DNA of 59,926 bases from Dethiosulfovibrio faecalis. Its GTDB lineage: Bacteria; Synergistota; Synergistia; Synergistales; Dethiosulfovibrionaceae. Both the position numbers and the translations under genes were made by a program. The notes under the pieces are model-generated. The model was not told the DNA's origin. It made no database searches and saw only the letters and a program-made list of their open reading frames with translations. Below are positions 93 through 28,013 of this stretch, in pieces; the stretch's first letter is position 1, and each line of letters opens with the position of its first letter. The stretch covers positions 1 through 59,926 of the forward strand of contig NZ_JAKGUE010000018.1 in the NCBI RefSeq assembly GCF_021568795.1, read 5' to 3'.

Positions 93-640
93 TACTTTAT
101 GAGAACTACTTTCGCTCTTTGATGCAGAAAAGGGAAAAGCATTCAGGGAGGAGGCTAACATCATCACCACAAAAAAACTAAAATAAAAAAACAATCTTTT
201 TTTTCTCAAGACGGCCATCCTTTCAGACCCCATGTATCTTACATCTAAGTTAGGCCCCATATCAAACACTTGTTTATAATAACATCAATAACGGATAAAA
301 TATAACGTCTAAAATTTTATCGGGTATTCTCCGGTATATGGCGGAGCCTATCAGGCAAGATGTCGTAAAAAGATAGGGAGCGTTCACTACCTCGGGAACC
401 TGTCCATTTTTAAGTACCCCATACATGATCGGCCTTCTGACCCTCACTCCGGAGATCAAGAAACTCAAAAACGACTACTTCTCCGGCTCCATGAGGTGGA
501 GAGAGGGGAAGTTCTCCTAGCCCAAGATCCCACTTGACATGGGGTAAAAGCTTGTCTATATTTAAATTTGGATTCATATCGACCTGTTATCTCGTCACAT
601 CCAGGTCCTTAAAGGATCTAAAAATCGAATAAGCTCAGTT
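93..640. other. Gene-free, relatively AT-rich stretch
   Basis: No credible gene is seen. The only open frames are two short minus-strand ones (51-269 and 274-468) with no good ribosome site and no recognisable product. The base composition is more AT-rich than the rest of the window. The promoter for the downstream riboswitch should lie near the right end, but no convincing -35/-10 pair could be fixed. Confidence 0.5.
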
Positions 641-745
641 TTCTAGGGTTCCGCGGCCTTTGGTCGGCAGGTCCGAGAGAAAACGCACGACTCGTCGTGT
701 ACACGGAAGGATAAAAGCCTGGGAGATTCGGTTCCCGGGCTTTTT
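641..745 (+). ncRNA. Guanidine-I (ykkC-type) riboswitch with intrinsic terminator
   Basis: The segment carries the hallmark ykkC blocks in order: CTAGGGTTCCG at 643-653, GGTCCGAGAGAAAAC at 670-684, ACACGG at 701-706 and GGATAAAAGCCTGGGAGA at 709-726. Stem P2 is 654-658 with 662-666, and a P3-like stem is 685-690 with 695-700. The 3' aptamer strand AAGCCTGGGA (715-724) is also the left arm of a terminator whose right arm TCCCGGGCTT (733-742) runs into a T tract. Aptamer and terminator are therefore mutually exclusive, which predicts an ON switch. Guanidine as ligand is inferred from the conserved blocks; ykkC subtype 2 RNAs bind ppGpp or PRPP and cannot be fully excluded. Confidence 0.88.
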
Positions 746-1483: not shown

Positions 1484-1736
1484 GGGCATCTCTAAAAACG
1501 TCACTCCTCGGAGAGGCCGTTTCGGCGGAGCCCATTCGAGCCCGTATTTCCGACCTGCCGTCGTGTAGTACGGATGGGGCGACAGGACGTCGCCCCAAGC
1601 CGAGGGGGCACAGGACGTGCCCTCCGAGGCGGTCCGTACGAAACAGGCAGGTCGGGAATACGTTCGGGCGAGACAGGGCGGAGCCGAAACGACCTCTCCG
1701 AGGAAACTCGGACCTGAGATTTTAGAGGTACCCTTA
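1481..1736. repeat. 256-bp imperfect inverted-repeat element with two inner AGGAC-loop hairpins
   Basis: The outer arms start TAAGGGCATCTCTAAAAACG at 1481 and end with TTTTAGAGGTACCCTTA at 1736. They pair, with interruptions, over about 75 bases on each side (GGAGAGGCCGTTTCGGC against GCCGAAACGACCTCTCC). Between the arms lie two clean hairpins: GGGGCGAC-AGGAC-GTCGCCCC (1576-1596) and GGGCAC-AGGAC-GTGCCC (1606-1622). The TAA stop of the preceding gene is inside the left end. A 54-bp derivative occurs at 33541-33594 and shares 28 consecutive bases, so this is a dispersed family. It has no coding capacity and is MITE-like or a structured RNA. Confidence 0.85.
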
Positions 1737-26947: not shown

Positions 26948-27751
26948 TTACTTCTTGCCCGGTCCGAAGGCGGGAACGACCCCTCCTCCGTAGTTTTCGA
27001 GTATGAAATCCCGTACCCTGTCGCTCTGGAGAGCCTCCACCAGAGCCTTCACGTCCTCCCTGTCGGCATCGCCGGCCCTTACCGCCACTATATTGGCGTA
27101 GGGAGAATCGGCTCCCTCCAGCAACAGGGCGTCCTCGGTGGGTTTCAGGCCAGCCTCCATGGCGTAGTTTCCGTTTATGACCGCTCCGTCCACGTCGGGA
27201 AGGACCCGGGGAAGCTGAGCCGATTCGATGGGACGAAAACGGAGATCCTTGGGATTGTCCTCAACGTCGAACTCGGTAGCCTCCAGCCCGGACGAATCGG
27301 AGAGGGAGATCAACCCCTCGGCCTGGAGCAGCAGCAGAGCGCGGCCTCCGTTGACGCTGTCGCTGGGGATCGCTATGACCGCCCCGTCGGGGAGGTCGTT
27401 TAGAGAGTCGTGCTTTCCCGAGTAGAGACCCAGGGGCTCCACGTGTATAGATCCGGCGGAGACGAGATCCAGGCGGTGATCCCTGGCGAAACCCTCCAGA
27501 TAGGGCAGATGCTGGAAGAAATTGGCGTCCAACGACCCTTCGTCCAGGGCCATGTTGGGCCTGACGTAATCGGTGAACTCAACTATTTTCAGATCGACGC
27601 CCTTTTCTGCGAGATCTCCCCTTACAAGTTCCAGAAGCTCCGAGTGCGGTAACGGAGTAGCCCCTACTACCAAGGTCCCGGCAACTGCCGGACCGGACAG
27701 GATCAGCCCGGCTATCAGGACCGAAGCCGCCAAAAACGCGATTCTCTTCAT
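26948..27751 (-). CDS. metQ: Methionine-type ABC transporter substrate-binding protein (MetQ/NlpA family)
   Basis: A 267-aa exported solute-binding protein. It has a signal peptide (residues 1-24, ending GPAVAG, no lipobox Cys, so probably released or anchored otherwise), then the NlpA/MetQ fold with VGATPLPHSELLE, DYVRPNMALDEG, NFFQHLPYLE and IAIPSDSVNGGRALLLLQ. Homologues bind D/L-methionine for the MetNI importer; metN and metI are not in this window. GAGGAGG precedes the ATG. The leader contains a SAM-I-type riboswitch, which supports methionine as ligand. Confidence 0.88.
   Translation of the reverse strand: MKRIAFLAASVLIAGLILSGPAVAGTLVVGATPLPHSELLELVRGDLAEKGVDLKIVEFTDYVRPNMALDEGSLDANFFQHLPYLEGFARDHRLDLVSAGSIHVEPLGLYSGKHDSLNDLPDGAVIAIPSDSVNGGRALLLLQAEGLISLSDSSGLEATEFDVEDNPKDLRFRPIESAQLPRVLPDVDGAVINGNYAMEAGLKPTEDALLLEGADSPYANIVAVRAGDADREDVKALVEALQSDRVRDFILENYGGGVVPAFGPGKK
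27584..27596. other. No feature (reading landmark within metQ)
   Basis: Nothing separate is annotated here; the region is interior to the MetQ-like gene. Confidence 0.1.
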
Positions 27752-27780
27752 GGTGAAAACGCCTCCTCAAGGATATTTTA

Positions 27781-27925
27781 CGGTCCTTTAAAAGGCCTTC
27801 CCGATGGGAAGGCCTTTTAAAGGACCGTCGCTCCTCATCGATGTCAGCAGGACCACCTTGCCGTAAAGCAGGTTGGTGCGGGATCTGCGAGCTGACTCTC
27901 TCCCCCGACTCTGGATAAACAGCTT
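27781..27925 (-). ncRNA. SAM-I-type riboswitch lacking P4, with terminator
   Basis: Read on the minus strand. P1 is TTTATC with GATGAG. P2a is CGGG/CCCG and P2b GAG/CTC, separated by a kink-turn (GGA opposite GCAGAT). The P2 loop GTCAGC pairs with GCTGAC after P3, a 6-bp pseudoknot. P3 is ACC-AA-CCT opposite AGG-T-GGT, reproducing the AA/U internal loop and the CAACC/GGUG elements of the SAM site. The P4 hairpin of classical SAM-I is absent. Downstream is a 22-bp perfect hairpin (27781-27827) containing AAGGCCTTCCC-ATC-GGGAAGGCCTTTT, a terminator. An OFF switch for methionine uptake is predicted. Confidence 0.85.
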
Positions 27926-28013
27926 ATTTCGTTGTTGGATGAGACGATACCACGGTTAGCATTATACGACAAGGGGAAAATAAAAGACCCAAAATTCGAA
28001 ATATTCATCACCC

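Follow-up and report, generated by a model that had tools for sequence, protein, structure and literature searches.

The leader of an orphan metQ gene in Dethiosulfovibrio faecalis contains an RNA that we read, from its sequence and from those of its relatives, as a P4-less subtype of the SAM-I-type riboswitch that would turn metQ off when SAM is plentiful; we put the probability of this reading at roughly 0.87. The RNA lies within the window, the whole 59,926-nt stretch of contig NZ_JAKGUE010000018.1 that was analysed, and is best described as belonging to a P4-less subtype of SAM-I that is widespread and whose pseudoknot resembles that of SAM-IV. P4 belongs to the textbook SAM-I fold, and its contribution can be judged naturally from a conserved subtype that has a longer pseudoknot in its stead. 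The open literature, as surveyed here, yielded no description of P4-less SAM-I RNAs; subscription journals and supplementary files lay outside that survey, and a prior description there is possible.

The aptamer in the metQ leader

The features of the leader, with the basis for each, are as follows.

26948..27751, minus strand: metQ, methionine ABC transporter substrate-binding lipoprotein (PF03180, NlpA lipoprotein, 311.6 bits)
27762..27768, minus strand: Shine-Dalgarno sequence GAGGAGG of metQ (read from the sequence)
27780..27828, minus strand: terminator-like hairpin with two perfect 23-nt arms (read from the sequence; sister-species comparison)
27799..27809, minus strand: putative antiterminator partner UUCCCAUCGGG, terminator 5′ arm and loop (duplex with the P1 3′ strand)
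27832..27921, minus strand: P4-less SAM-I-type aptamer, from P1 to P1 (RF00162 score, R1 score, covariation in relatives)
27834..27839, minus strand: P1 3′ strand GAUGAG, doubling as the putative antiterminator strand (alignment for P1; duplex test)
27840..27842, minus strand: 3-nt linker AUC at the position of the canonical P4
27843..27847, minus strand: pseudoknot 3′ strand CUGAC, in J3/4 (paired and covarying)
27852..27877, minus strand: P3 with the SAM pocket CAACC/GGUG (RF00162 alignment; little or no variation at pocket residues among the 66 sequences)
27878..27909, minus strand: P2a and P2b with the kink-turn (cmscan covariance-model alignment; conservation table)
27892..27896, minus strand: pseudoknot 5′ strand GUCAG, in L2 (paired and covarying)
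27914..27919, minus strand: P1 5′ strand UUUAUC, partner of 27839-27834 (pairing kept in 93.9% of the cells of the 66-sequence alignment)
27961..27966, minus strand: possible −10 element TATAAT (read from the sequence; weak)

In a search with an E-value threshold, the SAM-I model RF00162 scored 44.3 bits against the aptamer (27921..27832), for which the gathering score is 44.4, and an Rfam scan of the whole window at the gathering threshold called no SAM riboswitch at the metQ leader. The E-value was 4.5e-9 for the 361 bases searched and 8.0e-9 for the whole genome, and the latter argues that the RNA is real even though it falls 0.1 bit short of the Rfam cut-off. R1, a covariance model built from 13 Synergistota copies with the pseudoknot omitted, gave 104.2 bits, a score that is high by construction. 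The initial annotation had placed a riboswitch at 27781-27925; the aptamer itself is confirmed within this interval, and the remainder, down to 27781, is the terminator-like hairpin.

The metQ product also matches MetQ NCBIfam models, below their cut-offs, and the gene has no adjacent metN or metI, the next gene being on the plus strand. A promoter scan upstream of the aptamer found no sigma-70 pair, no good −35 element and no canonical promoter. Elsewhere in the window lie a Guanidine-I riboswitch (632-727, plus strand, 83.1 bits) and a TwoAYGGAY RNA (1543-1662, plus strand, 52.2 bits).

Architecture without P4

The RF00162 alignment bears out the kink-turn, the P3 AA/U loop and the CAACC/GGUG elements that had been read from the sequence alone. 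The kink-turn consists of P2b (GAG/CUC), a 3-nt bulge GCA (27888-27886) and tandem G.A pairs (27902/27884 and 27901/27885), and P3 is formed by ACCAACC/GGUGGU, with CAACC (27875-27871) opposite GGUG (27857-27854). From L2 (AGUCAG), GUCAG (27896-27892) forms five pairs with CUGAC (27847-27843). Four nucleotides separate P3 from this pseudoknot strand, and the P1 3′ strand begins after just three more, so that P4 is absent. The central proposal of the initial annotation, a SAM-I-type riboswitch with a lengthened pseudoknot and no P4, thus stands, although its "full six pairs" reduces to five plus one contested: the sixth, C27891-G27848, has complementary letters, but C27891 is the closing base of P2b as well, and the two pairings compete. 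The letters of the sixth pair are invariant in 66 relatives, and covariation therefore cannot judge it.

Elsewhere in this genome lie two canonical SAM-I copies (87.7 and 86.0 bits), one before metK and the other before a metQ-metN-metI operon, with a four-pair pseudoknot, CUGG/CCAG, followed by P4. Set against them, the window RNA has lost P4 and has five pseudoknot pairs rather than four. If SAM-I is taken strictly as a class with four helices, the lack of P4 places this RNA outside it.

Expression platform

The inner part of the hairpin downstream of the aptamer is GC-rich, and after it come a short U-tract, UUUU (27793-27790), and then AAAGG. Many of the relative loci have intrinsic terminators 3′ of the aptamer. 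Those of the sister species, in the corresponding position, carry UUUUUU, against UUUU in the window, where a scan requiring at least five T called no terminator; with so short a U-tract and no call, attenuation may be leaky in this strain. The hairpins of the sister species are imperfect and carry UUUUUUCAU where the window has UUUUAAA. The perfect 23-nt arms look like a quasi-palindrome that template switching has perfected while shortening the U-tract, and an assembly error is possible. Rfam matches of the 23-bp hairpin to miRNA, HIV and archaeal sRNA families were far below their cut-offs and were set aside as chance matches of a perfect hairpin.

The duplex between the P1 3′ strand and the terminator had a z-score of −2.49 in the window (p 0.02); over 66 loci the mean z-score was −1.89, with p ≤ 0.05 in 33. 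From this pairing above chance we infer SAM-OFF attenuation. SAM would sit between P1 and P3, as in SAM-I, with the P2 kink-turn bringing L2 back to J3/4. When SAM is bound, P1 would keep its 3′ strand and the terminator hairpin would form; without SAM, the P1 3′ strand would instead engage the terminator's 5′ arm and loop, letting transcription run on into metQ.

It is unlikely, but the most credible of the alternatives, that the aptamer is as described and control in this strain is exerted at translation, with the hairpin mattering for its closeness to the ribosome site. In favour of this are the weakness of the window terminator and the short distance, 11 nt, from the end of the hairpin to the Shine-Dalgarno sequence; however, sister species carry UUUUUU terminators at the same position, and no anti-Shine-Dalgarno strand was seen.

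Relatives and covariation

In the same bacterial family, RF00162 detects a low-scoring group (38-50 bits) of which every inspected member lacks P4, and close relatives with the same architecture fall on either side of the cut-off. R1 found further copies across the phylum and also matched Firmicutes loci that had been collected by DNA pattern, from Allobaculum, Ileibacterium, an Erysipelotrichaceae isolate, Alkaliphilus and UBA6806. One further pattern match, from a deltaproteobacterium (L103), had none of the flanking elements and was rejected as chance. A second model, R2 (25 sequences, pseudoknot again omitted), matched in 216 of 316 genomes from the order to which the Allobaculum genome belongs (Erysipelotrichales-type), where the P4-less form is thus common, and in 49 of 391 sampled within the class that includes the Alkaliphilus genome (Clostridia-type), tallies that hinge on the model and on strict filters, P4 absence having been inspected directly in 66 aligned sequences. 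Sampling the class that includes the UBA6806 genome gave nearly the same set as the Alkaliphilus-class draw.

In these 66 sequences the linker between the pseudoknot and P1 is 3 nt long in 64 and 2 nt long in two. The covariation in relatives on which the initial annotation had let its reading depend is present: 95.1% of cells are paired, and there are 248 two-sided changes against 67.4 in shuffles, which ignore relatedness; slid controls, which preserve it, never exceeded 42. As had been claimed for every stem, compensatory changes occur throughout, with two-sided changes at 4 of 6 pairs in P1, 5 of 6 in P2a, 1 of 3 in P2b, 6 of 11 in P3 and 4 of 5 in the pseudoknot. The pseudoknot is paired in 99.4% of cells, and because it was left out of both models, neither its pairing nor its covariation was built in. 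Two subtypes can be told apart: subtype A (56 of the 66 sequences), mostly with a GUYAG/CURAC pseudoknot, and subtype B (10 of 66), with CAAG/CUUG and, in nine, A in place of C8.

The warning that standard SAM-I models may miss such RNAs proved apt, and not just for the window copy with its 0.1-bit shortfall. When 40 P4-less loci were sampled, 25 passed RF00162 and 3 passed the SAM-I/IV model RF01725, whereas 12 (about 30%) passed neither.

These data also bear on whether the RNA could be a divergent member of SAM-I/IV or SAM-IV, in which P5 and PK-2 downstream of P1 would support the core, a reading that we consider improbable. P4 is missing from SAM-IV too (PMC6890682). RF01725 has no helix between P3 and P1, and it detects the window aptamer as well as placing those three relatives above its cut-off; its score for the window is, however, 34.6 bits, below the cut-off of 41.1, the SAM-IV model RF00634 had no match in the genome even at E 10, and the kink-turn is present. 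The PK-2 subdomain defines the SAM-I/IV family. L3 of the window, UUUACGG, is complementary to CCGUAAA, with which the hairpin ends, and the match could persist through G-U pairs in two sister species, but pairing between L3 and downstream sequence over the 66 loci had a mean z-score of −0.006 with none at p ≤ 0.05. This 7-nt match was rejected as PK-2, there being no excess over the 66 loci and its downstream strand lying within the hairpin. Since PK-2 finds no support and the SAM-IV and SAM-I/IV models reject the window, the P4-less SAM-I subtype is preferred, and the RNA probably works like SAM-I. Between the two placements offered by the initial annotation, SAM-I/IV membership is accordingly not supported and a minimal form fits better.

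SAM pocket and downstream genes

Residues near SAM were taken from published lists (PMC6890682; PMC3764141), and the former, which gives those within 5 Å of SAM in SAM-I (T. tengcongensis 6-8, 11-12, 44-47, 57-59 and 87), was mapped onto the window by hand. Twelve of these 13 residues are identical in the window, and C59 is swapped jointly with its partner G43, so that the G43-C59 pair, highly conserved in SAM-I, is C-G in the window, an inversion found in subtype A. A61 of J3/4 is replaced by C. The P1 contact pairs are retained, and A6-U88, U7-A87, G11, A12, C44, A45, C47, U57 and G58 show no variation among the 66 sequences, 65 of which also keep A46.

Genes 3′ of the P4-less RNA in relatives include metN, metQ, metF, metK, hom, luxS and one for O-acetylhomoserine sulfhydrylase, and subtype A lies mostly before methionine or SAM genes. 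A congener carries metN-metI-metQ downstream of its P4-less RNA, and the window genome has metQ alone there (window 26948-27751, L038:2572-5064 and L035:1209-3743 were compared). Three leaders are tandem, a P4-less SAM-I aptamer and terminator being followed by a canonical SAM-I aptamer:

L111:1089-1179 (P4-less), with 902-1014 (canonical)
L149:1501-1591 (P4-less), with 1669-1774 (canonical)
L151:1501-1590 (P4-less), with 1657-1765 (canonical)

Subtype B RNAs (L084, L051, L165-L172) precede single small proteins of about 100-125 amino acids, as with the aptamer L084:2034-2121 and the gene after it. These proteins had no Pfam or NCBIfam match; those of L084, L165, L168 and L170 are mutually related, and that of L166 weakly so. 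Several subtype A RNAs (L161, L163, L164, L152, L153, L158 and L162) likewise precede small uncharacterised proteins. One P4-less branch, subtype B, is tied to such proteins, which are not known to be connected with methionine, so that some members may not sense SAM.

For the window RNA itself we regard a switch of ligand as very unlikely. SAM-I variants that sense spermidine exist (PMC10853860), and the inverted G43-C59 of subtype A and the A at position 8 of subtype B would suit such a change; but the other contacts are intact and subtype A genes belong mostly to methionine or SAM metabolism, whereas the published variants have mutated contacts and polyamine genes. Still less likely is a decayed canonical SAM-I whose P4 and function were lost in this lineage: the score lies just below the cut-off and the U-tract is eroded relative to sister species, but the P4-less form is strictly conserved and covaries in two phyla, and the aptamer shows no decay.

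Comparison with known SAM riboswitches

The P4-less RNA shares with SAM-I (S box, RF00162) P1, the kink-turned P2, the P3 pocket, the L2-J3/4 pseudoknot and the contact residues, as well as its methionine genes and terminator platform. It differs in the absence of P4, the 5-bp rather than 4-bp pseudoknot, the inverted G43-C59 in subtype A and a C before the P1 3′ strand. The spermidine-sensing variants have a SAM-I-derived fold and OFF attenuation in common with it (PMC10853860); in those variants the SAM contacts are mutated and polyamine genes are controlled, whereas the window RNA keeps the contacts and has methionine genes downstream. SAM is its probable ligand.

With SAM-I/IV (RF01725) it shares the pocket and, in the Rfam model, the lack of a helix between P3 and P1. 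An internal loop is absent from P2 in SAM-I/IV (PMC2864571), whereas P2 of the window RNA has the kink-turn loop; the window RNA also lacks both PK-2 and the hairpin after P1, and scores below the cut-off. SAM-IV (RF00634) has no P4, and its 5-nt PK-1 strand runs into the P1 3′ strand; P5 and PK-2 are present in it, whereas the kink-turn of SAM-I is not (PMC6890682). The window RNA resembles it in the pocket, in having no P4 and in a five-base strand leading straight into P1, and differs in possessing the SAM-I kink-turn, in lacking P5 and PK-2 and in giving no RF00634 match. A 5-bp pseudoknot could hold the core in the absence of P4 much as PK-1 does in SAM-IV, the added pair probably compensating for the lost helix. 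The P4-less subtype is a plausible step between SAM-I and SAM-IV. More tentatively, and with less likelihood, these RNAs may form a separate SAM-clan architecture that bridges SAM-I and SAM-IV in at least two phyla, with subtype B having left methionine metabolism to control small proteins, possibly in response to another ligand.
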